30,044 bases of DNA. Origin: a virus. The stretch covers positions 1-30,044 of IMG/VR virus record IMGVR_UViG_3300029981_000047. One strand, 5' to 3'. This document shows positions 17,041 to 29,904 of this stretch, in pieces. The notes under the pieces are model-generated. The model searched no databases. It was not told the origin of the DNA and worked only from the letters and a program-made list of their open reading frames with translations. The translations under genes and the position numbers were made by a program. How positions within the stretch are numbered: position 1 is the stretch's first letter; the number at the start of each line of letters is the position of its first letter.

Positions 17041-19103
17041 GCAATCGACTTAATGGGCGTGGAATTGAACAGGGGTATGCCCCATTTTACGGTGTCAGCA
17101 CAGAAGAGCAATTAGCGACTACGGTAGACGAATCTGGAGCACAACAGTCAAGAGCGCAGGTATTGACTGACGAAGGTGGGTATCGTGTAAATTTTGCAAA
17201 TAGCTCTTTGGCTGTATCTATCGGTACTTGCACCTTTACCAATGGCTCAAACATTGTATCGGGTACGGGTCTATCAAACTACGATCTGCACAATGGCGAC
17301 TACATCTATCTCAATGCGGACGGTGTAACGGCACAGGCACATATTGATTATTTTACAGACACAAAAATAATTCTTGAAAAAAACTACACAGGTGCAGGGG
17401 GCACAGGAGCTTCTAGCCGTCAATTAGTCGCTTCAAAGACTGGCACAGGTCAAACTATATCAGTTGCATCAGGAGCGTGTACGATAACGCTTGGCAACAC
17501 AACGGGAGCGACAGCGGAATTAGAGCGTGATGTAGACATGATGCCTATTGATAAGACTTGCGCTATGTCAATTTCACAACGCGTAGCAAACCAAGATATT
17601 TACGCAGGGTTTTACAATGAGGCAATTGACCCTACCAATATTTTTGCATGGTTTCATTTTAACGGCACAACGAATACAACGGTAATATGTGAGACAGGCC
17701 GTAACCCAACCACAGCACCAAGTGTCGCTGAAACGCAGAGCACTACAATTACATTGCCTTCCGGTTTGACCACGGCAACGTCTAACCGTTACCGTGTATC
17801 AGTCTTACAAGACAGAGTCGTATTCTCAATTAACGATACCATTGTAGCAGCACATCAAAAGGTAGTTCCTTTATTTTCAGATTTGCTTACCTCAACTATC
17901 CGAGGCATTAACGGTACAACTCCGACTACAGGTACGTCTATTGTTGTTGATTATGATTATGTGCGTAACTTTAACTCTCTCATGATTGAGACAAGTTCAA
18001 CGGCTATCACAATAAATGATGATAATGTACCTATCACAGACTCGACTACCTATAACGCATCTGGTGTAATTACAATTAACACCGTGCTTGCAACTTTTGA
18101 TTGCTCTCAGGTTCGAAGTGTGTTCGTTTCTGGACAGGCCGGAACGACTGGCGCAATCACACCTGAATTCTACAATGAGATTACTACCACTTGGGTTCCC
18201 GTTGCTCTTATCCCCGCTCTTGGCGGTGCTATTGCTACAACAATTAGCACTACCACAGGGTTATGGATGATTCCTGTCACGGGTAAGACGTTGCGATTCC
18301 GCCTTTCAACGGCTACCACAGCAGGAAATACTCAACTTGTCATCAATGGATCTCGGGAAAATATCGCAATAGCTCCGACTACCATAGCGGCTACTCAGTC
18401 AGGTACATGGAATATTGGAACGGTAACGCCAGGCACGGCAGCGACAAACTTAGGTAAAGCCGAAGATGCAGCACATACTAGCGCAGACGTTGGCATAGAA
18501 ATGCTTGGCGTTCGTACGGATTCGCTTGTCTTGGGGGCGGGAGCAAATACTCGCTATGGGTATATTGCCCTTGATAAATTTAATGCCCAACTTGTAAGGT
18601 CGTTTGAAAAGCAAGCCAAAACATACCGTGCCGCTACAGCATTTGCAACCACAGCGGGAGCATTAAAGGATTTCTTTGAAATATTTGGCAATGCCACCAC
18701 TACAGTAGTCGTTACTGGCATAACAATAACGGGATACGCAACAGCAGCAACTCAGTGGTTAATTGCAGCTACGAAGCGATCTACGGCCAATACCGCTGGA
18801 ACTAAAGCAGCACTTACCGCTGTTCCTTTGGATTCAACTGATTCCGCTTCAAGCTCAATCCCTCAACAGTATTCCGTCGATCCTACTGCGATAGGCGCAT
18901 CTGTTGGTGATGTAGACTCAAGGTATGTAAACCTAAACGCTGGAGCGGCATCTACAGGAAACTCGAGTACATTTATTTCATTCGGTGATAAAGGAAAGGG
19001 TGTTCTTCTCTCGGGCGTTACTCAGGGACTATGTATTAGGACTATCGGAGCGGCACCAGCGGGAACAACTATTACCATTACGATTGAATGGTATGAATTC
19101 TAA
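17037..19103 (+). CDS. Large beta-rich virion protein
   Basis: I chose the ATG at 17037, which overlaps the previous stop (ATGA) and has GGGAG at the right distance; an in-frame ATG lies 12 bases upstream. The 688-residue product is Thr, Ser, Ala and Gly-rich with many short strands. It contains a stretch (ATQSGTWNIGTVTPG, then NLGKAEDAAHTSADVG) that I associate with structural proteins of environmental phages. No transmembrane or catalytic motif is visible. Its place after two receptor-binding proteins suggests a tail or capsid decoration. Confidence 0.6.
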   Translation: MSNRLNGRGIEQGYAPFYGVSTEEQLATTVDESGAQQSRAQVLTDEGGYRVNFANSSLAVSIGTCTFTNGSNIVSGTGLSNYDLHNGDYIYLNADGVTAQAHIDYFTDTKIILEKNYTGAGGTGASSRQLVASKTGTGQTISVASGACTITLGNTTGATAELERDVDMMPIDKTCAMSISQRVANQDIYAGFYNEAIDPTNIFAWFHFNGTTNTTVICETGRNPTTAPSVAETQSTTITLPSGLTTATSNRYRVSVLQDRVVFSINDTIVAAHQKVVPLFSDLLTSTIRGINGTTPTTGTSIVVDYDYVRNFNSLMIETSSTAITINDDNVPITDSTTYNASGVITINTVLATFDCSQVRSVFVSGQAGTTGAITPEFYNEITTTWVPVALIPALGGAIATTISTTTGLWMIPVTGKTLRFRLSTATTAGNTQLVINGSRENIAIAPTTIAATQSGTWNIGTVTPGTAATNLGKAEDAAHTSADVGIEMLGVRTDSLVLGAGANTRYGYIALDKFNAQLVRSFEKQAKTYRAATAFATTAGALKDFFEIFGNATTTVVVTGITITGYATAATQWLIAATKRSTANTAGTKAALTAVPLDSTDSASSSIPQQYSVDPTAIGASVGDVDSRYVNLNAGAASTGNSSTFISFGDKGKGVLLSGVTQGLCIRTIGAAPAGTTITITIEWYEF

Positions 19104-19826: not shown

Positions 19827-19841
19827 CACATGGGTGGTTTT

Positions 19842-20171
19842 ATGATCCTGAAAAATTGCGACTTACGAAAGATGTCAACACATATCGGGCTTGCCATTTC
19901 CCTCACAGAGCGTATCTATGCCCATTATAACCGTGAGATGGTAATCACATCGGTATGCGATGGAACGCATGGCGTAGGCTCTCTACACGCCTCTGGCAAT
20001 GCCTTTGACGTTAGGATCAAGAACCTAGACGGTGATGATACGAATATCACCGATAATGATCAGCATCTAGCAGCTCAGATTGTAGAGGATCTTAGGCATG
20101 AGCTAGGGGCACAGTTTGACGTTGTGTTGGAAAAGGATCATATCCACGTTGAATATGATCCTAAAGGTTGA
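19842..20171 (+). CDS. Endolysin, M15-type peptidase
   Basis: This is a 109-residue enzyme predicted to cut peptide cross-links in peptidoglycan. I chose the ATG at 19842 because GGGTGG lies at the right distance; an upstream in-frame ATG at 19830 lacks a site. The zinc motif of M15/hedgehog-like peptidases is visible: SLHASGNAFDVR (His and Asp ligands) and, near the C-terminus, DHIHVEYD (catalytic acid region and His ligand). The length is that of a single catalytic domain without a cell-wall binding module, usual for Gram-negative phages. It ends the late operon. Confidence 0.8.
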   Translation: MILKNCDLRKMSTHIGLAISLTERIYAHYNREMVITSVCDGTHGVGSLHASGNAFDVRIKNLDGDDTNITDNDQHLAAQIVEDLRHELGAQFDVVLEKDHIHVEYDPKG

Positions 20172-20388: not shown

Positions 20389-20412
20389 TGTCGGGTACAT
20401 CGTTTGTTAGGC
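20389..20412 (-). repeat. attC-like site F, truncated (R''-L'' half only)
   Basis: On the minus strand this reads GCCTAAC, then AAACGATG, then TACCCGACA. It matches the first half of the other cassette sites, including the CCGAC with the unpaired A. The expected second half (L' and GTTAGGC) is absent; unrelated sequence follows. The stop codon of the upstream gene lies inside the core box, as in the other cassettes. It marks the distal end of the array. Confidence 0.7.
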
Positions 20413-20679
20413 TATGCCGTTAATTATTGCCCAATCGCAAATTATCTCTGTTGCGTTTTGTTCTATGAATCCTTCTGGCGTTACATTATAAATAATCGGA
20501 TTACCGCCATATTGCTTTACTGCTTTTTTTGCGTAGTATTCTGCACTCGCCTTAGACATAGTAAGAAACACAACATCCAAATTTTTATTTCTGAATAATT
20601 CACGCAAATATCCTGTTTCAATAGATGGCATAATCCTGTCTTTTATCTGTATTGCATCCGTTGTTCCATGAAACGCCAT
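20407..20679 (-). CDS. Cassette gene: ADP-ribosyltransferase-fold-like protein
   Basis: This 90-residue protein has an N-terminal FHGT, a central VFLTMSKASAEYYAKKA and a late PIIYNVTPEG. The order HGT, then (V/I)(F/Y)(L/F)T with a following A-x-x-YA helix, then (I/V)Y-x-V is the pattern of small Arr- and KptA-like members of the ADP-ribosyltransferase fold. Arr itself is a known integron cassette gene for rifampicin modification, but this protein is shorter and its third catalytic residue is unclear. The ATG follows GAGGAAC in a leader shared with another cassette, and the stop TAA lies inside the attC core GCCTAAC. A role in modifying a host target or NAD metabolism is inference. Confidence 0.5.
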   Translation of the reverse strand: MAFHGTTDAIQIKDRIMPSIETGYLRELFRNKNLDVVFLTMSKASAEYYAKKAVKQYGGNPIIYNVTPEGFIEQNATEIICDWAIINGIA

Positions 20680-20694
20680 AAGTTCCTCGCATTA

Positions 20695-20777
20695 GCCTAA
20701 CGCTGAGATAATCCGCAAGCCAGTTGGCAACCCATGTAGGCGTTACTTTGGCTTGTCGGATTCATCGTTTGTTAGAC
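20695..20777 (-). repeat. attC-like site E (83 bp, complete)
   Basis: Outer boxes are GTCTAAC and GTTAGGC (minus strand). Inner arms AATCCG-a-CAAGCC and GGCTTGCGGATT pair with one unpaired A, the typical extrahelical base of attC sites. The AACAAACG start matches known long attC sites. It is about 80% identical to site A at 26108-26190. Confidence 0.9.
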
Positions 20778-21351
20778 GGCTTTTATTTTCCTGAAAGTGT
20801 TTTGAATGCAAGTGCAGCCACGCTTGGAACTTGTCCATTTCCAACTCTTGCGAGCCGCTCCACATTTCCGGCCAATTCATCATCCACTCTGCAAAGGTAG
20901 GGTGGCAAGCTATCTTCTTCTTTATTCTTCCATTCATTTCTCTCCCTGCAAAATTCTTCCACAGACCGATCAAACGATGTGAAAGACGGCTGGTGTCTTT
21001 CCAAGTCTCGCTGGATCTTAGTGGCCCCACTTCGTGAATGATCCTTGCCATTTCTGCCCACAATCCGCTTCTAGTTCCCTGTTGGATTCCTCTTCTGAAT
21101 CCTGCGGGGCTGATGTCCTGGCATGGGAACCCTCCACAAACAATGTCTGCAATTCCTTTCCATGGCTTCCCGTCAAATGTGCAGACATCATCCCAGATTG
21201 GGAACCATGGCAAAGCTCCTTCTCGTTGCCTTTGAATGAGTTTGTCTCTAGCATCTTTTTCAAATTCAACTGCGCAAACTGGCCTATGTCCGAGAAGTAA
21301 GCCGCCGAGGATTCCTCCCCCCGATCCTGCAAATAAGTGTAGCTCATTCAT
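20743..21351 (-). CDS. Cassette gene: DNA cytosine-C5 methyltransferase, internally shortened
   Basis: This 202-residue frame begins MNELHLFAGSGGGILGGLLLG (AdoMet-binding motif I) and has GGFPCQDIS (motif IV with the catalytic Cys) at about residues 73-81, followed by RSGLWAEMARIIHEVGP. Typical relatives next carry motif VI (ENV) and motif VIII. Both are missing here, so a full enzyme is unlikely unless another frame is used. The end (PTFAEWMMNWPEMW...MDKFQAWLHLH) resembles one known type of phage Dcm tail, and it runs on into attC site E. An overlapping frame holds the classical C-terminal motif. The gene may be a deletion derivative or need a frame change. Confidence 0.65.
   Translation of the reverse strand: MNELHLFAGSGGGILGGLLLGHRPVCAVEFEKDARDKLIQRQREGALPWFPIWDDVCTFDGKPWKGIADIVCGGFPCQDISPAGFRRGIQQGTRSGLWAEMARIIHEVGPLRSSETWKDTSRLSHRLIGLWKNFAGREMNGRIKKKIACHPTFAEWMMNWPEMWSGSQELEMDKFQAWLHLHSKHFQENKSRLTNDESDKPK
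20783..21061 (-). pseudogene. Overlapping frame carrying the C-terminal motif of a C5 methyltransferase
   Basis: In another frame over the 3' half of the methyltransferase gene, the last 35 residues read RVDDELAGNVERLARVGNGQVP and then SVAALAFKTLSGK. This is the classical motif IX-X end of phage C5 methyltransferases. Its stop lies five bases before attC site E, exactly where a cassette gene should end. The upstream part of this frame (from the ATG at 21061) is not recognisable. Most likely it is the original C-terminus, now separated from motifs I-IV by a deletion or frameshift. A dual-coding end is the alternative. Confidence 0.6.
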
Positions 21352-21374
21352 TTTATTCCTGTATTGATTTGTCC

Positions 21375-21420
21375 GTCTAACACCCTAGTGACCCCTGTTT
21401 TTCACATCCCGTTATCCTGA
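21375..21420 (-). other. attI-like docking site 2 (single core box)
   Basis: On the minus strand the sequence ends GGTCACTAGGGTGTTAGAC, with GTTAGAC the core box directly before the methyltransferase cassette. There is no partner RYYYAAC box upstream, so it does not form an attC hairpin. About 38 of 46 bases match the site at 26387-26432, which also precedes a first cassette. A single-box site at the head of an array is what an attI site looks like; an attC remnant is the alternative. Confidence 0.55.
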
Positions 21421-21441
21421 ATTTCGTCACCGTGAAATTCA
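21418..21441. repeat. Perfect inverted repeat next to the attI-like site
   Basis: TGAATTTC and GAAATTCA form an eight-base inverted repeat around an eight-base spacer, directly beyond the conserved TTATCC edge of the attI-like element. The twin site has a different inverted repeat at the same position. It may be a protein-binding site or structural arm. The 120 bases from here to 21539 hold no gene or recognisable signal. Confidence 0.45.
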
Positions 21442-21539
21442 TTCCGTGATTCCTTTCGACTTTAGCCATTCTTTACGTTCCGAAATTCCTTCTGTTACCA
21501 CTTCGGGCATTTCTCGCTCATACACTCACCTCGTTTTGT

Positions 21540-21764
21540 TTATTGTTTGATCTTGCCTATCCAGTATTGCTTTACCCTCTTCCCATTCGCCAGTTTAACC
21601 CACTCCCAGCGCACTTCCAGATTAGTGCCTATCAGTAGCTCCCGAATGTCGCTTATTCGCCTTGTGAAGCCTCCTAGCACCCCGTACAGCTTGAAAGCGT
21701 CAAGGTTAGTCAGGTACTGCGTTTCCATGTGAAGGATCATCTTATCGACTTGAGTTTTGACCAT
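21540..21764 (-). CDS. Small winged-helix (HTH) phage protein
   Basis: This is a 74-residue protein. The start is set at the ATG in the TGATG junction with the upstream stop; a GTG one codon further is possible. The sequence LTNLDAFKLYGVLGGFTRRISDIRELLIGT, then WVKLANGKRVKQYWI, matches a common phage helix-turn-helix/winged-helix domain family: a helix, the RISDIREL recognition helix and a beta wing with K-G-K-R-V. It would bind DNA, probably as a regulator or accessory recombination protein. It is the last gene of the recombination operon. Confidence 0.65.
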   Translation of the reverse strand: MVKTQVDKMILHMETQYLTNLDAFKLYGVLGGFTRRISDIRELLIGTNLEVRWEWVKLANGKRVKQYWIGKIKQ

Positions 21765-21970
21765 CACATAACCGCCTTATAGATTGTGAACCATACCTGT
21801 GCAATCCCATCAAACACCCGATTCCAGCCCAGAGTCAGCGTCTCAAGGCCGTAATAAAACGATCCGATGATTGAGCCGATAGCGAGGAATCCGATGATTA
21901 GCATCAGCACCGCATCGAGTAGGATATAGTGCTTTCCGTGTGGTTGTTTGTAGTCGTTTTCAAATGTCAT
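21764..21970 (-). CDS. Small membrane protein of the recombination operon
   Basis: This 68-residue protein has a long hydrophobic stretch at about residues 16-42 (YILLDAVLMLIIGFLAIGSIIGSFYYG) and an amphipathic end. It overlaps the genes on both sides by three or four bases. No family is recognised. A membrane protein in an early operon could interfere with host functions or superinfection, but nothing in the sequence shows that. Confidence 0.55.
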   Translation of the reverse strand: MTFENDYKQPHGKHYILLDAVLMLIIGFLAIGSIIGSFYYGLETLTLGWNRVFDGIAQVWFTIYKAVM

Positions 21971-22854
21971 TTATTCACCCTGACGTTGATAAATGAAACA
22001 ACCTTCCCTAGCAATCCTCTTACCTCAATAGCGGTTGAATTTGCTTCTAGGGTCAAAAGGGATGGAAATTGAATTGAACCAATCAATCGAGCCAATTCAA
22101 GCAACTTTTCATTATCTGGTGCAGACTCAAATTTCTTGCGCTCATTTTCTTTTGCAATTGCTTGTTTTGCCTCAGATTCATCCTTTTCCTTTTGCTTTCG
22201 TAGTTCTTGTGCGGCCTTTGCTTGTTCTTCTGCAAGTTGCTTATTAAGTACATCCTTTTGCTTTTGAAGTTCTGCGTTTTCTAAACGAATGCGATCGTTT
22301 TCAATTCGTTCCGCTTCTTTCTTTTCTTCCTCTTGTTTTACTTCTAGTTCTTGCTTTTCTTTCTGAGAATTAGCAATTGAAATAATTCGTTCAAATTCAA
22401 AATCTGCCATCTTTCCAAGATCACCGAATGAAGGTAGAAAAACCTGATAAGAATCTAATACGGCTTGCCGTTCTGCTCGTAGCGCATCTTGGCGTTTCTT
22501 TTCCTGATTCTCTGCAAACTTTTCCTGTGTCTCTAGGTATTCCTCAATAGGAGAAATAACCGACTCAATAAGATTGTATGCGCCTTGCACGGCCTTGCCA
22601 TATCGCAATGAATCCTCTTTCAATTCCTTTCGAGTCTTATCTGCATCAATGCGAATTTGGCGCATGATAAGTCTAGATTCTCTCGCAAGTTTCATTTCTG
22701 TTAACTGGGTCGCATCAGTAACAATAATTGATTTCGCTTTGTCCGCTAATTCAATTGCCCTTTCGATAAACGGGGAAAATTTTTCCATCAACATAGATTC
22801 GGTCTGTTGCTCTACGTTTTGCTTCTTGATTTCGATAAACATTAATTCGTTCAT
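21967..22854 (-). CDS. Coiled-coil protein of the recombination operon
   Basis: This 295-residue protein is nearly all helix. A long charged coiled coil spans about residues 105-245 and is rich in Glu, Lys and Gln. The N-terminal part (FIERAIELADKAKSIIVTD..LARESRLIMRQIRIDADKTRKELKEDSL) resembles phage DUF1351-like proteins found beside annealing proteins. AAGGAA precedes the ATG. The gene lies next to an SSB-like protein and a Rad52-like protein, so a role in phage recombination or nuclease inhibition is plausible; the family assignment is by resemblance. Confidence 0.6.
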   Translation of the reverse strand: MNELMFIEIKKQNVEQQTESMLMEKFSPFIERAIELADKAKSIIVTDATQLTEMKLARESRLIMRQIRIDADKTRKELKEDSLRYGKAVQGAYNLIESVISPIEEYLETQEKFAENQEKKRQDALRAERQAVLDSYQVFLPSFGDLGKMADFEFERIISIANSQKEKQELEVKQEEEKKEAERIENDRIRLENAELQKQKDVLNKQLAEEQAKAAQELRKQKEKDESEAKQAIAKENERKKFESAPDNEKLLELARLIGSIQFPSLLTLEANSTAIEVRGLLGKVVSFINVRVNK

Positions 22855-22875
22855 TTTTATTCCTTTGTTTCTTGT

Positions 22876-23130
22876 TTAGAATGGAAGATCGTCGCTTGTA
22901 TTTTTCTGTTGCGCCTGTTGCGCTTGCGCCTGTGGCTTCCATGTATCCACACTCACGCTATGGGTGTTCCCCTTCTGGTCGATCTCCCGAAGCGTTCCAA
23001 CGTTCAGCGTGGCATACCGCTTGCTTTTAAACTCGCTTGTGTGCTCTTGTGGGATGTCATCAAGGCAGATGCGAATACGAATTCCGTATTGATTTTGTTT
23101 GCCTTTCCCGCACCAAATTTTATCAGCCAT
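22876..23130 (-). CDS. Small SSB-like protein with acidic C-terminal tip
   Basis: This 84-residue protein has a basic beta-rich first part (KIWCGKGKQNQYGIRIRICLDDIP, then YATLNVGTLREIDQKGNTHSVSVDTW), a Gln/Ala linker, and an end SDDLPF. The DDLPF tip copies the DDDIPF tail by which bacterial SSB proteins recruit partners. The body is shorter than a full OB fold but the linker-tip layout is that of SSB. It overlaps the annealing protein gene by eight bases, which supports a joint role in handling single-stranded DNA. Confidence 0.7.
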   Translation of the reverse strand: MADKIWCGKGKQNQYGIRIRICLDDIPQEHTSEFKSKRYATLNVGTLREIDQKGNTHSVSVDTWKPQAQAQQAQQKNTSDDLPF

Positions 23131-23827
23131 TGTTTACCCCGAACTCTTTAAGGTGATTATATACGTCTCTCATGTGAGACTCCGGTACGTCGTTGCATGA
23201 CTCAAATCCGATTTCGCCAAGCCTTGCAATCAGTACGCTAGGCGATAGCTTCAACTTGGCTACAGTTTCGAGGAATGCCTTTTTCTTTTCGCTAGCGAGT
23301 GGCTTTTTAAGCTCTTGCAATCGTTGGTTATCAGCGTCAATTTGTGCAAGCTTCGCATCCTGCTCTGGAGTTGACATTTCGACGGTGTACTTTGATCCAT
23401 CCCAAAAGCCTGAATAGATAGCGGCTGCAACACCTAACTGTTTCATGGCAACAGAAAGCGCATCTGTTGTTGCCATCTTATAGGCTTCATCGGAAAAATG
23501 CAGACCCCTTGTTTCGGCAGATGCAAGTCTTGACCCGCCAATACCTTCGATGGGTTCCGACCATTCGCCTTTATACTTTACCCTCATGGCGATCTTAACG
23601 AACACGGCTATCTCTTCGCCTACAGTCCTCTCCCATCGGTCAACCTCTTTATACGCCCATCCAATACCAATAGGGCCAAACACCCTAGTCATGGCAAGGT
23701 AACGCCATTGAGGGTTAATATCGGTCATCCCCTTTAATCGGCCTGCACCAATCGTCTTTAGTGCGCCTGCTGGTGGATATGCTACGCTTTCATAGATTTC
23801 CGTATTATTGATTGATTCACTATTCAT
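23123..23827 (-). CDS. Single-strand annealing protein, Rad52-superfamily-like
   Basis: This 234-residue protein reads INPQWRYLAMTRVFGPIGIGWAYKE, then an IEGIGGSRL turn and SDEAYKMATTDALSVAMKQLGVAAAIYSGFWDGSKY. That signature is widespread in phage Rad52/Sak-type recombinases, including the A-x-TDALS-x-A-x-K-x-LG helix. The last 80 residues are helical and variable. It would anneal complementary single strands during phage recombination and genome repair. It sits with SSB-like and coiled-coil partners in one operon and between the two cassette arrays. Confidence 0.75.
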   Translation of the reverse strand: MNSESINNTEIYESVAYPPAGALKTIGAGRLKGMTDINPQWRYLAMTRVFGPIGIGWAYKEVDRWERTVGEEIAVFVKIAMRVKYKGEWSEPIEGIGGSRLASAETRGLHFSDEAYKMATTDALSVAMKQLGVAAAIYSGFWDGSKYTVEMSTPEQDAKLAQIDADNQRLQELKKPLASEKKKAFLETVAKLKLSPSVLIARLGEIGFESCNDVPESHMRDVYNHLKEFGVNNG

Positions 23828-24050
23828 TTTCTCCTAGCTCCTCTTTGATAAATTCAAGTGCGTCATTTCTTGCCGTGCCACCGTTTTCAATCAGGTACAT
23901 CCTTGCATCCATAAGTACATGTCGCAATCGGTCAATCTCTTTCAGAGCCTTGCACAAAGGGCACTCTGAATCCTCAATGACAGCCATGCGCGTATAGGTC
24001 ACGGTGTCATCGTGGAATTTGTTGTGCAGATCGCAAGTTCGAGTAATCAT
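23820..24050 (-). CDS. Small CxxC protein, tandem paralogue 2
   Basis: This 76-residue protein has a CDLH near the start, then ECPLCKALKEIDRLRHVL, a knuckle followed by a helix. It shares the CxxH...CPLCxAxKxI arrangement with the gene just upstream, so the two look like a tandem duplication. It overlaps the annealing protein gene by eight bases and is coupled by ATGA to its paralogue. A zinc-binding role is likely; the function is unknown. Confidence 0.6.
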   Translation of the reverse strand: MITRTCDLHNKFHDDTVTYTRMAVIEDSECPLCKALKEIDRLRHVLMDARMYLIENGGTARNDALEFIKEELGENE

Positions 24051-24223
24051 CTCCTGAGCTCCTCTAGTACGTGCTCAACAACTGGGTTTAGTACGGCACT
24101 ACAGTTTTTGAGATTGATGACCGAATTTGTAATTTTCTTTTCAGCAACGCATAAAGGGCAATCCGAAATCTTCTTTTCGTCCCACACAATTGCAGCGTAC
24201 TTATGTTCGTGACATGACTTCAT
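24047..24223 (-). CDS. Small CxxC protein, tandem paralogue 1 (58 residues)
   Basis: This frame fits exactly between its neighbours: its ATG overlaps the upstream stop (ATGA) and its TGA overlaps the downstream ATG. The product starts MKSCHEHKYAAIVWDEKK and continues ISDCPLCVAEKKI, matching the next gene's CxxH and CPLC pattern. It ends with a helix, LEELRR. Two linked small zinc proteins of this type are common in phage early operons. No function is assigned. Confidence 0.65.
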   Translation of the reverse strand: MKSCHEHKYAAIVWDEKKISDCPLCVAEKKITNSVINLKNCSAVLNPVVEHVLEELRR

Positions 24224-24399
24224 TTCTTTACCGCCTTGATTGCTTTGCAGATTACCGTATCGACTGTTGGCTTTTCGCTTTCATCGCAAGGGTTCGCAGC
24301 TTTCATCTTCTTCGCGATTGCTTTTTGCCGTTCCACTTCTTTTGCAACAAAGTCACGAGTTGCAAATTTTACCGATATTGTTGTGTAGCTTCGATTCAT
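24220..24399 (-). CDS. Small basic protein, first gene of the recombination operon
   Basis: I chose the ATG at 24399, which has AAGGAGAAAC before it; the frame extends further upstream without a site. The 59-residue product is lysine-rich (AKEVERQKAIAKKMKAAN) and starts MNRSYTTISVKF. It is coupled to the next gene by ATGA. The family is unknown; the basic helix suggests nucleic-acid binding. Confidence 0.55.
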   Translation of the reverse strand: MNRSYTTISVKFATRDFVAKEVERQKAIAKKMKAANPCDESEKPTVDTVICKAIKAVKK

Positions 24400-24417
24400 G
24401 TTTCTCCTTTTTGTGTA

Positions 24418-24456
24418 AGATAATAAATCTAAACGCAATTGCAAGACAATATGCAA
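24418..24456 (-). promoter_or_regulatory. Early promoter with TCTTGCA repeat before the recombination operon
   Basis: Minus strand: TTGCATATTGTCTTGCAATT, then TATCTT about 16 bases after the second TTGCAA. The doubled TTGCA element repeats the plus-strand promoter copies at 29541 and 29656. It lies between the cassette array and the first recombination gene. Confidence 0.45.
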
Positions 24457-24461
24457 GAAAT

Positions 24462-24513
24462 AAATAACGCTGAGATTACCCGCACGTAGTGTCGTGTACA
24501 TCGGTTGTTAGGC
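24462..24513 (-). repeat. attC-like site D (52 bp, one core box degenerate)
   Basis: Outer box R'' is GCCTAAC; the distal box reads GTTATTT instead of GTTAGGC. Arms TACACGACAC and GTGCGGGTA pair with an unpaired A. Forty-nine bases (24465-24513) are identical to site C (24705-24753). The damaged distal box marks the boundary between the array and the phage recombination operon. Confidence 0.85.
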
Positions 24514-24685
24514 GACAGTTAGTTATCTGCATCCATCTATTCGCCTCCATTCTGCAATTCCATGATTGTCTAAATGAGTTTCCTGCAAATCCGTTTATAG
24601 ATTCTGATCCACATTCAAACCTAACTCCATCAGGTTCCATCATTCCGGGTTTGCATTGTTTTGCTTTGCATTTTGGGCAATCCAT
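24476..24685 (-). CDS. Cassette gene: small zinc-ribbon protein
   Basis: This 69-residue protein starts MDCPKCKAKQCKPGMMEPDG and continues with FECGSESIN and a later SWNCR. The CPKC...FECG...C pattern recalls small phage Lar-like restriction-alleviation proteins, but only loosely. AAAGGAAC precedes the ATG. The frame does not stop before the site: it reads through the core box of attC D and ends inside its arms, adding about 14 site-encoded residues. An earlier version of the cassette probably ended at the core. Confidence 0.5.
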   Translation of the reverse strand: MDCPKCKAKQCKPGMMEPDGVRFECGSESINGFAGNSFRQSWNCRMEANRWMQITNCRLTTDVHDTTCG

Positions 24686-24701
24686 AAAGTTCCTTTTGTT
24701 C

Positions 24702-24753
24702 GCCTAACGCTGAGATTACCCGCACGTAGTGTCGTGTACATCGGTTGTTAGGC
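24702..24753 (-). repeat. attC-like site C (52 bp, complete)
   Basis: Both boxes are perfect (GCCTAAC and GTTAGGC, minus strand). The arms pair with an unpaired A, giving a compact hairpin of the shortest attC class. It is virtually identical to site D. Confidence 0.92.
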
Positions 24754-25361
24754 TATGCCGTTAATAAGTCCAATTGCGCTGTTTCGTACTTGATACGCTT
24801 TTGCATTGCCGCAAAGTAGTCTTTGTCTAGCTCTGATCCTGTTAGGTCAAAGCCCATTTGATGACACGCAATGGCTATGCTACCGCTTCCAAGATGCGTA
24901 TCTAGTACATTATCTCCTTTCTTTGCGTAGTTGTGTAGTAACCATTTATATAGGGCTACTGGCTTTTGTGTAGGGTGAAATCTATCTAGTTGCATTGGGT
25001 TTATCTTTTTTATTCGTGTACCACCAGAGCGAACCCAAGCAAACTCGCACTCCGCAAAATCACGCCCATACATTGTTTCTCCTTTATCCCAAATAGCAAA
25101 ATACTGATTAGGAGGTAGATTAAAATAATTACCTCCCCAGATTATTTGATTTTTAGATATTCTGAACAGCTCAATAAAATATGATTCATCTGGTACTGCA
25201 GAATCCCATGTTTTTTTTGTAGGCATTACAGTTTTACGAGATCCCATATTCATTTTATTTACATCAATCCCATAAGGTGGGTCAACAATAGCCAGCTCGA
25301 AGTGCTTGTCTGGGTATTGAGCCATAAGCTCCATGCAGTCCATGTTTCGTAAATCAAGCAT
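24753..25361 (-). CDS. Cassette gene: DNA methyltransferase (N6-adenine/N4-cytosine type)
   Basis: This 202-residue enzyme would methylate an exocyclic amino group in DNA using AdoMet. Motif IV DPPYG lies at about residues 27-31, then a WGGNYF segment, FHPTQKP near residue 129, and the AdoMet motif I region VLDTHLGSGSIAIA near 152-165. This motif order is that of the beta-class D12-independent N4/N6 group (PF01555), and the DTHLGS variant is common in phage versions. The length is full for a phage stand-alone enzyme. GAGGAAC in a shared leader lies before the ATG, and the stop TAG falls within the conserved cassette end. Target specificity is unknown. It probably protects phage DNA from restriction. 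Confidence 0.9.
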   Translation of the reverse strand: MLDLRNMDCMELMAQYPDKHFELAIVDPPYGIDVNKMNMGSRKTVMPTKKTWDSAVPDESYFIELFRISKNQIIWGGNYFNLPPNQYFAIWDKGETMYGRDFAECEFAWVRSGGTRIKKINPMQLDRFHPTQKPVALYKWLLHNYAKKGDNVLDTHLGSGSIAIACHQMGFDLTGSELDKDYFAAMQKRIKYETAQLDLLTA

Positions 25362-25381
25362 CGTTTTAGTTCCTCGTATTA

Positions 25382-25458
25382 GCCTAACGCCAAAATAACC
25401 TGCCGATTTTGCGCGACCTTATGCTAACAAAATCGGTCGGGTTCATTGACTGTTAGGT
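25382..25458 (-). repeat. attC-like site B (77 bp, complete)
   Basis: Boxes ACCTAAC and GTTAGGC enclose arms AACCCGACCGATTTTG and CAAAATCGGCAGGTT, which pair along their length with one unpaired A. This is the longest perfect stem of the set. Confidence 0.92.
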
Positions 25459-25865
25459 CACAGCCTAAAATTTACTCTATACATTTCTTGAGCCAATACA
25501 GATACTAGAGTTTCAGAATGTTCAATTCCATTCAACTGTAAAACTGCATGACACCATTCATGTATTAAAGTTGCTTCCTTTTGTTGGTCTGGCATTTCCT
25601 TATCAATAAATATTCTTAGGTCTTTGATGTCACATCGCCCTAAAGATTCGTCGCTTCTCGAATTTCTATCTCTGTTTACAACTTCAAAGCATAGTCCACA
25701 AATAATTATTTTTTTGTGTGAAAACTCTAATTTCATGGAATCATCTCTAATCAATTCTTTTGTTGTTAAAAATGCTATTACATTATCAACTTCTCTCGAG
25801 CATCCATTATTTTTTGACCACTCTGAAAATTCTCTCGCCAACGCACTTCTTTTGCTAAACAACAT
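25458..25865 (-). CDS. Cassette gene: HExxH metallopeptidase-like protein
   Basis: This 135-residue protein carries ATLIHEWCHAVLQLNGIEHSETLVSVLAQEM. That is a zinc-metallopeptidase HExxH helix followed by an acidic helix, as in the ImmA/IrrE group. The preceding strand GRCDIKDLRIFIDKEM and CGLCFEVVN fit the same fold. ImmA-like peptidases cleave or sense repressors and toxins. The N-terminal third (KRSALAREFSEWSKNNGCS) is helical and unassigned. The gene follows a 69-residue partner in the same cassette with a one-base gap, and its TGA overlaps the edge of attC B. Confidence 0.65.
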   Translation of the reverse strand: MLFSKRSALAREFSEWSKNNGCSREVDNVIAFLTTKELIRDDSMKLEFSHKKIIICGLCFEVVNRDRNSRSDESLGRCDIKDLRIFIDKEMPDQQKEATLIHEWCHAVLQLNGIEHSETLVSVLAQEMYRVNFRL

Positions 25866-25866
25866 A

Positions 25867-26076
25867 TTACTCCCTTATGTAGTTCAAAATTGCTTCCATC
25901 ATCTCAACAAACTCATGCTCATCAAGTTCTAGTTTTTTACGGAAATATGAATCCACAGGTTTTTTATGTTTAAGGCTTACTAATCCATCTTTGATGGAAA
26001 TTGAATATTGTGCAGCGGTTGAGTCTGCAAATAGAATTTCTCTTGATGCTATTACGCCTCGCGTAATTTCTTTCAT
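25867..26076 (-). CDS. Cassette gene: small partner of the metallopeptidase
   Basis: This 69-residue acidic protein (MKEITRGVIASREILFADST, then LELDEHEFVEMMEAILNYIRE) has a beta-rich N-terminal half and a C-terminal helix. ACGGAGAAT precedes the ATG. Its stop is one base from the start of the HExxH gene, so the two are co-translated and share one cassette, an unusual arrangement. A regulator-peptidase or antitoxin-like pairing is possible but unproven. Confidence 0.55.
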   Translation of the reverse strand: MKEITRGVIASREILFADSTAAQYSISIKDGLVSLKHKKPVDSYFRKKLELDEHEFVEMMEAILNYIRE

Positions 26077-26107
26077 TTTTATTCTCCGTTAAATGTTCGT
26101 TCTGCTG

Positions 26108-26190
26108 ACCTAACTCTGAGATAATCCGCAAGCCAGTTGGTAACCAATGTGGGAATTATTTTGTCTTGTCGTATTCCTCGCTTGTTAGGC
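26108..26190 (-). repeat. attC-like site A (83 bp, complete)
   Basis: Boxes GCCTAAC and GTTAGGT enclose arms AATACGACAAGAC and GGCTTGCGGATT, which pair with two mismatches and one unpaired A. It is closely similar to site E, five kilobases away. Confidence 0.9.
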
Positions 26191-26352
26191 TATGTTTCCT
26201 AGTTTTCTTGCAACCAATTTCTTCTGTTCATGTTCTTGTTTCTCATATTGAGCCATTTCTTTTTTTACACGGTCATTTACTCGGTTAAAGAATTTATTTG
26301 AATACTCTGCGTTTCCAAATTGGGCTAAAATCTCGTAGATACACCCATCCAT
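26185..26352 (-). CDS. Cassette gene: 55-residue charged helical protein
   Basis: This small frame starts at an ATG with AAAGGTGG at the right distance and ends with TAA inside the attC A core box, just as the other cassette genes do. The product (MDGCIYEILAQFGNAEYSNK, then a lysine/glutamate-rich helix ending KLGNIA) is helical and basic in its second half. No family is recognised. It is the first gene after the attI-like site, so it should be the best expressed cassette. Confidence 0.6.
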   Translation of the reverse strand: MDGCIYEILAQFGNAEYSNKFFNRVNDRVKKEMAQYEKQEHEQKKLVARKLGNIA

Positions 26353-26386
26353 TTTAACCACCTTTGTTCTTAGGGCACTCGCATTA

Positions 26387-26432
26387 GCCTAACATCCTAG
26401 TGACCCATGTTTTTTGCATCCTCTTATCCGGA
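26387..26432 (-). other. attI-like docking site 1 (single core box)
   Basis: On the minus strand it ends GGGTCACTAGGATGTTAGGC; the core box GTTAGGC directly precedes the first cassette. No matching partner box lies upstream. It is about 83% identical over 46 bases to the site at 21375-21420, and the similarity stops at the TTATCC edge in both. Confidence 0.6.
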
Positions 26433-26458
26433 CTCAACAGGGTAAAAAGTCCAGATAA
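26424..26458. repeat. Stem-loop at the outer edge of attI-like site 1
   Basis: TTATCCGGACT and AGTCCAGATAA form an 11-base stem with one mismatch (a G-U pair in the minus-strand RNA) and a 13-base loop. It overlaps the end of the conserved attI-like element. Confidence 0.45.
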
Positions 26459-26796: not shown

Positions 26797-26982
26797 ATGG
26801 CAATTAGTTATGATGTCACAGACCGCAAAAGGAATAGCACAAAAACAATGAAGATTGGTTTTGACTGCTTGGATACAATAAGGATTGAGATAAACTCAAA
26901 CTATGAAAATGACCCAAATCCTATAAGGTCATTTTTGATTTCAAGCAAAGACTTATTTAAGATCATAGAGAATCTAAAATGA
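26797..26982 (+). CDS. Small hypothetical protein opening the replication operon
   Basis: I chose the ATG at 26797 (TTGGAG upstream) over an in-frame TTG further up. The 61-residue product (MAISYDVTDRKRNSTKTMKI, then IRIEINSNYENDPNPIRSFLIS) looks like a small alpha-beta protein. It overlaps the initiator gene by four bases. The family is not recognised. Confidence 0.55.
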   Translation: MAISYDVTDRKRNSTKTMKIGFDCLDTIRIEINSNYENDPNPIRSFLISSKDLFKIIENLK

Positions 26983-27668
26983 GTGGCTGGATAAAACTAC
27001 ATAGGGATCTTTTAAGCTGGGAGTGGTATCGAACTCCTAATATGGTTCATTTCTGGATACATTGCCTTCTAAGGGCCAACCACCTACCGCAAAAGTGGGA
27101 GGGAATAGACGTTTGTGAAGGTCAGTTTATCTCTGGACGACTTAGTCTATCTGCGGAAACTGGTTTGTCAGAGCAAGAGATCCGCACTTGCCTTGCAAGG
27201 CTAAAATCAACCAACGAATTAACCAGCATATCAACCAGCAAATACACGCTATTTACGGTAATTTCGTGGAAAAAGTACCAAATTGAAGAACCAGCCAACC
27301 AGCAACCTAACCAACCAGCAACCAGCAATCAACCAGCAATCAACCAGCAATCAACCACAAACAAGAATGATAAGAAAGAAAGAAAGAAAGAAGAAGAGGC
27401 GCAGATTCCTTCGGAACTGCTTTTGTTTGATGGATTTTCTGATATGTGGGAATCATTTCTTGAAAACCGTAAAAAGTTGAGAAAACCTGCAACCGAAAAA
27501 GCAAAGGCTTTGCTTTTAAGCAGCCTATGTGGAATTAAAAACCCTGTCTTATCTTTGCAGCGATCAATAGAAAACGGATGGTCTGGAGTTTTTGAAGGTA
27601 AAAATGATCCAGAGCCTTATAAGCCTACACCAAGAAGAATCCCACAAAAGGTAAACTATGACACTTGA
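26979..27668 (+). CDS. Phage replication initiator (O/DnaD-like)
   Basis: This is a 229-residue protein. Residues 1-100 (SGWIKLHRDLLSWEWYRTPNMVHFWIHCLL, then LSLSAETGLSEQEIRTCLARLKSTNEL) form a winged-helix domain typical of phage initiators that bind origin iterons. Residues 105-140 are a low-complexity linker of Asn, Gln and Pro followed by a Lys/Glu run. The C-terminal part (LLFDGFSDMWESFLENRKKLRKPATEKAKALLLSSL, then IENGWSGVF) is DnaD-like and would contact the helicase. Direct repeats inside the gene (27289-27362) are probably the origin. It overlaps the helicase gene by 11 bases. Confidence 0.75.
   Translation: MSGWIKLHRDLLSWEWYRTPNMVHFWIHCLLRANHLPQKWEGIDVCEGQFISGRLSLSAETGLSEQEIRTCLARLKSTNELTSISTSKYTLFTVISWKKYQIEEPANQQPNQPATSNQPAINQQSTTNKNDKKERKKEEEAQIPSELLLFDGFSDMWESFLENRKKLRKPATEKAKALLLSSLCGIKNPVLSLQRSIENGWSGVFEGKNDPEPYKPTPRRIPQKVNYDT
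27289..27362 (+). repeat. Iteron-like direct repeats inside the initiator gene
   Basis: Three perfect tandem copies of the 11-mer AACCAGCAATC (27320-27352) are flanked by degenerate copies on both sides. The phage lambda origin has iterons in the same place, inside gene O. The repeats encode the Asn/Gln/Pro linker, so a coding explanation also exists. Confidence 0.6.
27366..27399 (+). other. Purine-only A-rich tract after the iterons
   Basis: Repeated GAAA units make a strand-asymmetric, easily melted tract directly after the iterons, as an unwinding element would be placed. It encodes the Lys/Glu run of the initiator, so it may be only coding. Confidence 0.4.
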
Positions 27669-28827
27669 CTGGCAAAGAATCGAAGTACAGGCCGTATTTG
27701 CGGGTATAACCTCGCCAGATATGATCTGTAGGCAAGATGTGAGGGAGCTATTAAAAGACCTTGACAATGGCTACAGGAAGCCCATACAAGGCAAATGCAA
27801 TGCCCCTGACGACGTATGGCAGCTGTATATCCATTCTCGCTTTATGGGACTTGAGCATTGTCGCATAAACGGGGTAGCAAAGGTTACGTCACGTTACCTA
27901 AAGGAACAGAAGCGCAAAGAGACAGCAGAAATATACAAGCGGCTCAATGATGATTCAGACCCATGCTCTGATATTGTAGGTAATGGCATGGATAACACCA
28001 TGCTGAACGAGGATCAATTGCTAGACCGCTTGCAAAACAAGCATGACAATGTACAACGGTATAAGACCAATTGGGCGTGTACTGACAATATTCTGTACAA
28101 CTTCTCACCAGGGGATGTTTGCTTGATTTGTGGCCTATCGAACGTAGGTAAAACATCTGTGGCCTTGCAATTGACCTATTTTGCCAAGCATAAGACCCTA
28201 TACTATGGGGTTGACATGAGTGTTGAGGCTTTGACGGAGCGCATCATCAAGACCGTCTGGTATCGTGACCATGTCCAGCCATGGATCCATGATGTCAGGT
28301 TACGTTGTGACCGTGAAACGGAATGGGCGATTAAGAACCGTAAAGCGCAGATTGAAAAGGGTATCCATGTTTACAATTGCGATTCCATGACCCTAGAGCA
28401 AATTGAGTTTTCAGCACGTCAAGAGCTAGAAACATTTAAAGCGGAAGTGATTATTATCGACTATGCAGGGCGCATTGACTTTGAGGGTGATTCGCGGGAA
28501 ATGTGGAGGGAGGAGCAGAAGGTAGCTAGATCTATCAAGGGCATTGCAAAGCGACTTGGGGTTCGGGTTATCGCATTGGCTCAATTGAATAGCACAGCGG
28601 AACACTTTAAGAAACCTGAAAATAAAAATGTATCTGGATCAAGAGAATTCATTTCTGCTTGTGATGTAGTTATATGCTTATGGCGATCAAAGGATCAGAA
28701 CGGGCAAGCTGATTATTCCAAGCTCAATCTATCCGATGAAATCAAGAATCGTGATACTGGCGTTCAGGGTGATTTCGTTTTAGACCAGTTCGGGACTTGG
28801 CTTTATGAGGAGTTTGGAAATGACTAA
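27658..28827 (+). CDS. Replicative DNA helicase, DnaB-like C-terminal domain
   Basis: This is a 389-residue protein. From about residue 130 it has an F4-type RecA core: FSPGDVCLICGLSNVGKTS (Walker A) near 151-168, then a YYGVDMSVEALTERI stretch, the Walker B AEVIIIDYAGR near 257-267, and IALAQLN (sensor) near 300-306. A REFISACDVVICLWRS segment follows, as in DnaB relatives. The N-terminal 120 residues differ from the usual DnaB N-domain and may bind the adjacent initiator. It would unwind DNA at the phage fork. It directly follows the initiator gene. Confidence 0.88.
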   Translation: MTLDWQRIEVQAVFAGITSPDMICRQDVRELLKDLDNGYRKPIQGKCNAPDDVWQLYIHSRFMGLEHCRINGVAKVTSRYLKEQKRKETAEIYKRLNDDSDPCSDIVGNGMDNTMLNEDQLLDRLQNKHDNVQRYKTNWACTDNILYNFSPGDVCLICGLSNVGKTSVALQLTYFAKHKTLYYGVDMSVEALTERIIKTVWYRDHVQPWIHDVRLRCDRETEWAIKNRKAQIEKGIHVYNCDSMTLEQIEFSARQELETFKAEVIIIDYAGRIDFEGDSREMWREEQKVARSIKGIAKRLGVRVIALAQLNSTAEHFKKPENKNVSGSREFISACDVVICLWRSKDQNGQADYSKLNLSDEIKNRDTGVQGDFVLDQFGTWLYEEFGND

Positions 28828-29053
28828 TTGCGTTTGCGGGTGCGCCCCAACAATCAAAGAGCACCTAGGGTTTTTTATCGTAGGGTGCTACTCGGATAAT
28901 CACATAGAGGAATTTACTTGGGAAGATCTTTACGGAAAACTACAACTTGGGAAAGACCTATTTCCTCTTTGTGGTATGCCGAAGCCAACAGTAGCTGAGG
29001 CAATAGAGTCCTGGGAACTGTGGCAAAAAATGTTTAGGGAGAATGAAGAATGA
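28820..29053 (+). CDS. Small Cys-rich phage protein
   Basis: I chose the ATG at 28820, which has GAGGAG upstream and overlaps the helicase stop; an in-frame ATG 15 bases earlier lacks a site. The 77-residue product begins MTNCVCGCAPTIKEHLGFFIVGCYS, a zinc-knuckle-like N-terminus, and ends AEAIESWELWQKMFRENEE. The end motif recurs at 29440 in another frame. A Lar-like restriction-alleviation role is a weak possibility. Confidence 0.55.
   Translation: MTNCVCGCAPTIKEHLGFFIVGCYSDNHIEEFTWEDLYGKLQLGKDLFPLCGMPKPTVAEAIESWELWQKMFRENEE
29006..29035 (+). repeat. 30-bp direct repeat, copy 1 of 2 (copy 2 at 29452-29481)
   Basis: The two copies differ at 2 of 30 positions, both in third-codon positions of the frame encoding ESWELWQKMF. 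Copy 1 is read in that frame; copy 2 is in a different frame of its host gene. Confidence 0.7.
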
Positions 29054-29127
29054 ATAAGTGTAGTTTCGATGGCTGTGAAAAAGTTGTATACAACCCTGTA
29101 ATGATGATTTCAATGGAGGTGAAATAA
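29050..29127 (+). CDS. 25-residue Cys-containing small protein
   Basis: A short frame (MNKCSFDGCEKVVYNPVMMI, then SMEVK) whose ATG overlaps the upstream stop and whose TAA overlaps the downstream ATG. The double coupling supports translation. CSFDGC looks like the first knuckle of a zinc finger whose second half is missing. Confidence 0.45.
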   Translation: MNKCSFDGCEKVVYNPVMMISMEVK

Positions 29128-29486: not shown

Positions 29487-29527
29487 TTGATTTGGGTACA
29501 CTTATTGGGTACGGAATTTTCAATATC

Positions 29528-29621
29528 TCTTGATTTTGTCATGCATTGTCTTACATGAGTGGGTATATTCTCTGTACGGACGCAAGCAATGCCGCAGAGT
29601 CCAAAAGGAAACGAAAATGAA
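29528..29621 (+). promoter_or_regulatory. Promoter-leader unit, copy 1
   Basis: A -35-like ATGCAT (29541-29546) and TATATT (29564-29569) are 17 bases apart. A leader with GGACGCAAGCAAT and a ribosome site AAAGGAAACG leads to an ATG at 29617. The unit is repeated 115 bases downstream. The ATG-initiated frame reads through copy 2 into the following gene. Confidence 0.55.
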
Positions 29622-29642
29622 TGCAATTCTAAATGATGTGTC

Positions 29643-29736
29643 TCTTGTTTTTGTCTTGCATTGTCTTGCATTCGTTGGTATATTATCTCCATGGACGCAA
29701 GCAATACCGCAAAGAGTCCGAAAGGAAATGAAAATG
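29643..29736 (+). promoter_or_regulatory. Promoter-leader unit, copy 2
   Basis: -35 TTGCAT (29656-29661), a 17-base spacer and extended -10 TGGTATATT (ending 29684) form the best promoter in the window. The leader carries GGACGCAAGCAAT and AAAGGAAATG before the ATG at 29734. Two TCTTGCAT units overlap the -35 region. Confidence 0.65.
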
Positions 29737-29904
29737 AAAACTTTAATCGCAGTAAGAACTTCAGACTCAAAAGAACTTTTAGTGCATAGTGATTTTGGTG
29801 AAGATCAAGAAATATTTGGTGATCTTTACATTTCAGACGAGATGAAAGATTATATCACAAGTGAACTAGGCGATTCTTATACTTTGAAAATTATTGAAGA
29901 ATAA
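29734..29904 (+). CDS. Small acidic hypothetical protein
   Basis: This 56-residue acidic protein (MKTLIAVRTSDSKELLVHSD, then FGEDQEIFGDLYIS) starts after AAAGGA; an ATG two codons upstream is also possible. The in-frame reading open further left passes through the promoter and is not likely to be coding. No family is recognised. Confidence 0.5.
   Translation: MKTLIAVRTSDSKELLVHSDFGEDQEIFGDLYISDEMKDYITSELGDSYTLKIIEE

Follow-up and report, generated by a model that had tools for sequence, protein, structure and literature searches.

Two arrays of integron-type gene cassettes, built around recombination sites of the attC class and with no integrase gene alongside, are present in the phage genome of IMG/VR record IMGVR_UViG_3300029981_000047 (W below; the window analyzed is that entire virus entry, 30,044 bases). 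An earlier note, made by inspection of the letters, had proposed a single such array, located between lysis and replication genes and lacking an integrase. The occurrence of attC sites is confirmed, and a phage-borne cluster of them in that setting is supported, as all five complete sites pass covariance scoring and no tyrosine recombinase (PF00589) was found in the record. Its being single is not, since the sites form two arrays, separated by about 3 kb of phage genes that are devoid of attC. The reading favored here, with a probability of roughly 70%, is that the arrays are genuine and are worked in trans by an integron integrase of the host acting on single-stranded phage DNA.

The positions proposed for five complete sites, S1 to S5, and a half site, S0, are all right (Table 1), with both covariance models described below returning the same five complete intervals at full length. 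All five are on the minus strand, which is that of the cassette genes, in agreement with the common orientation claimed. Read on that strand, a complete site has an R″ box, 4 bases, a 3-base arm, an unpaired G, a 6-base arm, an unpaired A and a further arm with the loop, followed by the matching arms, 5 bases and an R′ box. The conserved unpaired A had been predicted and is seen in 5/5 sites, as is the G, a second unpaired base at a fixed place. The imperfect palindrome, central spacer, extrahelical bases and variable terminal loop, in sites of 52–83 bases, are the features listed for attC in PMC8946536. Both inverted consensus boxes, RYYYAAC and GTTRRRY, had been ascribed to the sites generally; four of the five have them and S2 does not, its 3′ box, GTTATTT, falling at the junction of array A with phage sequence. 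Over 49 bp (24465-24513 and 24705-24753) S2 does not differ from S3 in any letter, though these sites end different genes. When each complete site is folded freely, the top strand comes out slightly more stable than its bottom counterpart. S0 retains a full R″-L″ half, for which no partner half was seen in the neighboring sequence, and it is matched by neither model. That every cassette gene ends at or inside its site is correct if the last open reading frame (ORF) is taken, which in all six cassettes stops within the site or at its edge; with a frame-broken methyltransferase gene the first ORF ends in the site and the second stops 6 bases before it.

The covariance models R1 and R2 were made in this analysis and are not those of IntegronFinder or HattCI. 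R1 was built from an alignment (A3) of 11 sites, the five of W and six of a related phage contig, G3 (IMGVR_UViG_3300031918_000110; loci L008 and L069). R2 drew on 14 sites in other phages and in bacteria and used no W or G3 site; its training sites came via R1 or via a cassette leader, making it separate from R1 in sequence and not in discovery. In A3 the 20-pair structure pairs in 88.9% of cells, versus 27–41% with one side slid by 1–3 columns, and 10 of the 13 inner-stem pairs show changes on both sides that are compensatory. An alignment from which the W sites were omitted (six sites of G3, one of them 98.75% identical to S1, four bacterial and one of phage TJE1) has 90.5% of cells paired and again compensatory changes in 10/13 inner pairs, so that the claim of site structure being kept while sequence differs is borne out by both. 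Over 337,721 bases R2 finds all five W sites (expectation value, E, 8e-14 to 5e-7) and five of the six in G3 (not 2174-2262), the remaining matches up to E 1 being to ten sites on which it had been trained and to another TJE1 site (E 0.003). The covariance check that had been suggested is thus passed in full with a model holding no W or G3 site, and the objection that covariance scoring fails does not apply. An R1 scan gave 25 rows that represent 11 distinct sites of W and G3, the remainder being the same sites in overlapping or near-identical loci. R1 also matches TJE1 at 1016-1075 (E 7.3e-5), possibly one of the TJE1 sites of the published assay. Neither model is a universal attC detector, because both miss the published attC sites of phage P12002L.

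Array A runs in the direction of its cassettes from 26387 to 24462 and contains four complete sites; array B, from 21375 to 20389, contains one complete site and the terminal half site. By the published rule, a cluster of attC sites lacking an integrase (CALIN) has two or more attC sites no further than 3 kb apart and no integrase (PMC9892861). This describes array A; array B alone would not pass, having one complete site only, 3,685 bases from S2. The integron integrase gene of a complete integron is absent from W by PF00589, a search that also had no match in G3, in G1 and L014, two near relatives of W (IMGVR_UViG_3300028738_000069, also locus L015, and IMGVR_UViG_3300028862_000392, also L003), or in three contigs described below, G690, V102 and V103. 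BLAST of the array region against phages gave 51 records and, among the 20 matches listed, only methyltransferase genes match. Of the two methyltransferase genes, the C5 type is split over two frames identically in G1; its second ORF would be the C-terminal part. DNA similarity to Vibrio phage methyltransferase genes covers both ORFs of this split gene. The resemblance of another cassette product to Arr is barely above the cut-off and provides no evidence for drug resistance.

Similar attC sites are present in six further IMG/VR contigs: G3, V102 (IMGVR_UViG_3300035670_001170, locus L105), V103 (IMGVR_UViG_3300048930_000252), G690 (IMGVR_UViG_3300047181_000043), G697 (IMGVR_UViG_3300012931_000051) and G700 (IMGVR_UViG_3300047181_000090), with gene sets that are P22-like, siphophage-like or of contractile-tail type. 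An attC-derived motif, TAACNCTGAGATNANCCGC, occurs in 12 viral stretches, three of them with the sites (L008, which is G3, L014 and L015). A cassette leader, GTTAGGYTAATRCGAGGAA, occurs in six, namely G3, L014, L015 and the new V102, V103 and G690, with R1 confirming arrays in V102 and V103. A generic attC pattern occurs in 20, among them 15 new loci, 12 without attC and three (L112, L119 and L124) where R2 confirmed sites, adding G690 (two sites), G700 (four) and G697 (one). Locus L080, found by a second pattern, was confirmed as an attC locus by neither model. The gene set of V103 is siphophage-type (phrog_15 terminase, phrog_21 portal, head protease, tape measure) and includes a RecT-like protein; G690 has a tail sheath and a UvsX-like recombinase, G697 a P22-like portal, and G700 a terminase fragment only. 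As G690 and G700 come from one sample and have in common 105 identical bases, at the end of the former (L127 1-105) and in the interior of the latter (L125 13792-13896), near a transposase-like gene, they may be parts of one genome.

Three pairs of contigs whose backbones are only distantly related or unrelated have attC DNA in common at 93–99% identity: S1 of W with G3 (98.75% over 80 bp), V102 with V103 (93.3% over 75 bp) and G3 with G700 (96.6% over 59 bp). The common blocks match the extent of the attC sites to within 4 bases, and the adjoining genes differ. Simple cassette transfer would move gene and site together and is therefore not what the three pairs reflect. On the simplest reading, the hosts supplying the cassettes would have a single attC type, much as the sites of a chromosomal integron resemble one another whatever the gene. 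Near-identical swap sites in quite different viruses suggest that these viruses draw on a common pool of such genes.

Cassette content at the same locus in related phages is also pertinent. G3 (31,358 bases, and taken as complete because of a 127-base terminal repeat) has a backbone collinear with that of W, with amino acid identities of 37% for the terminase, 32% for the portal and 33% for a head protein. Beside its homologous peptidase gene six cassettes stand in a row, where five of the sites are complete and the terminal one is a half site; there is one more site in its head-gene region, accepted by R1 and not by R2. In V102, whose structural genes are 21–36% identical to those of W, the neighboring gene is an endolysin gene (compare the presumed lysis gene of W at 19830..20171) and five sites lie downstream of it, with two small genes between. 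The three related phages W, G3 and V102 thus carry different cassettes at the lysis-gene locus. In a further relative, G011 (IMGVR_UViG_3300031999_000130; peptidase 62% identical), there is no attC site by R1 or R2; G010, a relative by its terminase, is uninformative on the locus because it has no match to the peptidase gene. With cassettes replaced in G3 and V102 and no array in G011, the refuting case named in the earlier note, intervals fixed and collinear in all relatives, does not hold. A homologue in another contig was found for few of the 37 cassette ORFs of the seven contigs, only the methyltransferases of W, G3 and V103 and one G3-G690 pair (phmmer, E <= 1e-3; overlapping and probably spurious frames are included and ORFs under 60 amino acids left out). 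Between W and the near-identical G1 there is no difference in array B and one in array A, so that the locus differs between distant relatives and turnover at short range is not shown.

Some other features of these loci may be mentioned. A G3 cassette contains a radical SAM gene (L069 18992-19843; PF04055, E 8.7e-10). A second cassette leader, around CAACCTTCGGTTGGATCGAGGAG, precedes three unlike G3 genes (L069 2876-2931, 18784-18827 and 19837-19893), and a variant of it precedes the first V102 cassette (L105 3664-3696). About where its relatives carry arrays, G011 (L077, L078) has repeats, direct and inverted and in large families, that encode repetitive, SLRDSL-like peptides (reverse-complement coordinates 22305-23163, 24450-24833, 30566-32137 and 1-697).

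Directly before the first cassette of both W arrays is a 41-bp repeat that is part of a 60-bp element, of which G700 has a copy at one array start and G690 has copies at two, making five array starts in all. The G690 and G700 copies sit in a block of about 157 bp common to these contigs at 86.5–91%. Over the five copies 30 of the 60 columns are invariant, and the element ends in GTTAGRY, with the crossover point expected after the G. R3, a sequence model of the five copies, was run on 31 sources (505,188 bases) and matched nothing but these five; a search by motif through 1.3 Mb in 131 loci, many of them overlapping or from near-identical phages, likewise located the element only at these array starts. 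No match to it was found in the phage or plasmid collections. Its position and repetition make it an attI-like candidate that has no integrase with it.

In bacteria, R1 matched 2/369 genomes of the class of G013 and 2/296 of the phylum of G014 (stricter filters), which shows that the model finds bacterial attC sites and is not informative on host identity. One match (L085, genome G227) has a second site nearby and adjoins an integron integrase fragment (TIGR02249, E 9.4e-15), and another, in G619, is 5 kb from an integrase fragment. Of the other two genomes with an R1 match, G252 has an intact integron integrase gene, but on another contig, and G414 has no integron integrase over the cut-off. 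Among eight integrase loci with short flanks (L093-L100), R2 found sites in two, namely a pair in L093, next to an intact integron integrase, and a single weak one in L100 (E 0.005). Since 14 of 36 genomes have an integron integrase over the family cut-off, its occurrence in a genome says little, and weight is given only to closeness to attC. R1 matched none of the 14 genomes reached through loci. In 50 bacterial stretches with TAACNCTGAGATNANCCGC it gave two weak matches (best E 0.03), judged to be chance. The leader pattern was found in one of 369 bacterial genomes, with one mismatch, and led to no host; S1, array A and the array-start element had no match in the plasmid collection.

In the scheme favored, the phage makes no integrase of its own, and its cassettes, all in one orientation, are each composed of a leader, one gene or two, and an attC site. 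On infection, single-stranded phage DNA would allow attC to fold into its conserved hairpin with unpaired bases (phage infection is named among the ways for attC to fold from single strands in PMC8946536). A host integron integrase would then cut after the G of GTTRRRY and insert or remove cassettes, with the 60-bp element heading each array as the putative attI-like entry site. The phage would gain an exchangeable accessory locus, in which the genes of clear family are mainly DNA methyltransferases, probably directed against host restriction. In favor of this scheme are the R2 matches to all five sites, the compensatory changes, the R1 match to TJE1, the R1 and R2 matches in bacteria near integron integrase genes or fragments, the varied cassettes at a single locus (with none in G011), the attC DNA that unlike phages have in common, and the element confined to five array starts. 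Several points weigh on the other side. No recombination has been observed, and neither a host nor a host integrase was identified, given the single leader-bearing genome of 369 and the lack of a plasmid match. The arrays are unchanged in G1, one methyltransferase gene is frame-broken and the last site is only a half. The common attC blocks adjoin different genes, which simple cassette transfer would not yield. The array-start element is absent from the array starts of G3, V102, V103 and G697, and promoter matches do not rise above chance where it is present, a sigma-70 scan giving none in the G700 element and 15 in the W region versus 13.5 expected.

Several of these same points, namely the missing integrase, the terminal half sites of W and G3, the broken methyltransferase frame and the sameness of the arrays in W and G1, would be natural if pieces of a host chromosomal cassette array had been captured by chance recombination and were carried as ordinary genes, with their attC sites real and unused in the phage. 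That is unlikely, though it deserves to be kept in mind, as it sits poorly with the variation in cassettes among W, G3 and V102 at one locus, with intact folds in all complete sites, with similar arrays in several unlike phages and with an array-start element common to otherwise unrelated contigs. Exchange by homology, in which the repeats formed by attC and leader stretches would serve phage recombinases as short homologies with no integrase involved, has in its favor that identity blocks coincide with attC while adjoining genes differ, and that V103 has its RecT-like protein, G690 its UvsX-like protein and W an exonuclease-like protein. However, the compensatory changes and fixed unpaired bases point to selection for keeping the fold over the letters, which homology exchange would not need, and it is accordingly rated improbable. 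That the sites are just the hairpins or terminators usual at gene ends, matching the boxes by chance, has next to nothing to recommend it: a box-and-free-fold scan of the plus strand, itself weak evidence for attC, does give 1–5 matches per shuffled window (20 shuffles) versus seven in the real one, four of them these sites (S2 is missed because of its 3′ box), but the independent model R2 already contradicts such an origin by its E values for all five, R1 is blank in 13 other viral loci totaling 135,859 bases, and none of six terminator-like matches in the region falls on an attC.

As for known systems, the attC sites of a sedentary chromosomal integron, e.g. in Vibrio, are alike within a set though the genes differ, and its cassettes are mostly of unknown function. 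The W set is similar in having like sites, unlike genes and cassettes mostly of unknown function, and different in its few cassettes, its lack of an integrase gene and its phage location. The bacterial integron-type loci L085 and L093, with attC sites found by the same covariance models, differ in the integrase gene or fragment alongside. Closer are the phage CALINs, of which 17 were reported in 10,705 phage genomes, together with an IntI1 assay in which two tested attC sites of TJE1 recombined with attI1 (Qi 2023, PMC9892861). The earlier note's implication that cassette arrays were known only from chromosomes and plasmids does not, therefore, survive, even if its account of this array does in the respects given above. 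The likenesses to those of TJE1, P12002L, PH101 and others include clusters of attC without an integrase, methyltransferase cassettes and the presence of virulent phages among the carriers (PMC9892861), and TJE1 is matched by R1 and R2. Differences are that the P12002L sites are matched by neither, and that the seen portion of that report describes no attC sequence common to unlike phages and no phage-common array-start element. The CALIN of cryptic Shewanella prophage M16-3 also has an attI site heading a cassette array in phage-derived DNA, but that attI is the host species' own and a complete integron is in the same prophage (PMC9892861), whereas neither the phage nor the plasmid collection gave a match to the W element, and here no integrase was found. 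In the literature, without preprints and most subscription papers, no report was found of attC sites common to unlike phages or of a phage-common array-start element. New here are the attC sites in six further contigs, the attC DNA common to unlike phages, the locus differences and the array-start element.

The W genome is about 30.15 kb and the record nearly complete, because the near relatives L003 and G1 join its right end to its left end with only some 111 bases between. Matches of its terminase, P22-like portal, head and head-closure genes (phrog_3717, phrog_156, phrog_283 and phrog_578) mark it, on gene content, as a podovirus-like phage. Rfam at gathering thresholds had no match in W, and it has no tRNAs. 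In the replication-gene region, 27392-29087 is wholly different in G1 and L003, with flanks 95–99% identical. An intergenic repeat of about 98 bp is present in two copies, 85% alike, at 29526-29621 and 29641-29738, with related copies in G3 near 3296-3369 and 20623-20699.

Table 1. Features of the two cassette arrays of W and of the genes around them, in the direction of the cassettes
Feature	Position	Strand	Basis
Flank: helicase loader and DnaB-like helicase	26979..28827	+	phrog_2514 E 3.7e-29; phrog_19 E 4.3e-38
Array-start element A	26387..26446	-	repeat comparison, alignment, R3
First cassette of array A, 58-amino-acid (aa) ORF	26185..26361	-	ORF
attC site S5	26108..26190	-	R1 E 4.6e-16; R2 E 5e-7
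Second gene of metallopeptidase-like cassette, 69 aa, no family match	25867..26076	-	ORF; Pfam, PHROG searches
Cassette gene, 135 aa, weak metallopeptidase similarity	25458..25865	-	PF20573, PF06114 below cut-off; phrog_1233 E 1.2e-13
attC site S4	25382..25458	-	R1 E 2.3e-16; R2 E 1.8e-12
Cassette gene, N6/N4 DNA methyltransferase	24753..25361	-	PF01555 E 5e-15; phrog_67 E 4.1e-39
attC site S3	24702..24753	-	R1 E 5.3e-12; R2 E 1.5e-12
Cassette gene, 69 aa, no family match	24476..24685	-	ORF; Pfam, PHROG searches
attC site S2, array A end	24462..24513	-	R1 E 4.3e-10; R2 E 6.5e-8
Phage genes without attC between arrays, including exonuclease-like gene 23123-23827	21435..24461	-	ORFs; phrog_7838 E 3.4e-36; no R1 or R2 match
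Array-start element B	21375..21434	-	repeat comparison, alignment, R3
Cassette gene, C5 DNA methyltransferase, frame-broken	20743..21351, second ORF 20783-21061	-	PF00145 E 3.1e-13; two ORFs
attC site S1	20695..20777	-	R1 E 9.6e-18; R2 E 8.4e-14
Cassette gene, 90 aa, weakly like Arr ADP-ribosyltransferase domain	20407..20679	-	PF12120 25.6 bits vs cut-off 25; phrog_2110 E 2.8e-15
Half attC site S0 (R″ and L″ only), array B end beside phage backbone	20389..20412	-	sequence; like half site in G3 at 17370-17396
Flank: peptidase-like, presumed lysis gene adjoining array B	19830..20171	+	PF06904 weak; no PHROG match; homologous to G3 16978-17307

A bolder proposal, offered tentatively and at somewhat less than even odds, is that phages have their own branch of integrons, with an attI-like entry site and cassettes of matched leaders and attC but no integrase, common to podovirus-like, siphophage-like and contractile-tailed phages of one host group. 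This would amount to a phage-to-phage market in anti-restriction and accessory genes run by host-supplied integrase. If the arrays are active, the cassettes are not carried merely by accident, and phages keep an integrase-free exchange locus for which they borrow the integrase of the host. Two mobile gene pools would then be joined, and unlike phages would have a rapid means of exchanging counter-defence genes. Near-identical attC sites on different genes in different phages would, in that event, also bear on how genes come to be joined to attC sites.

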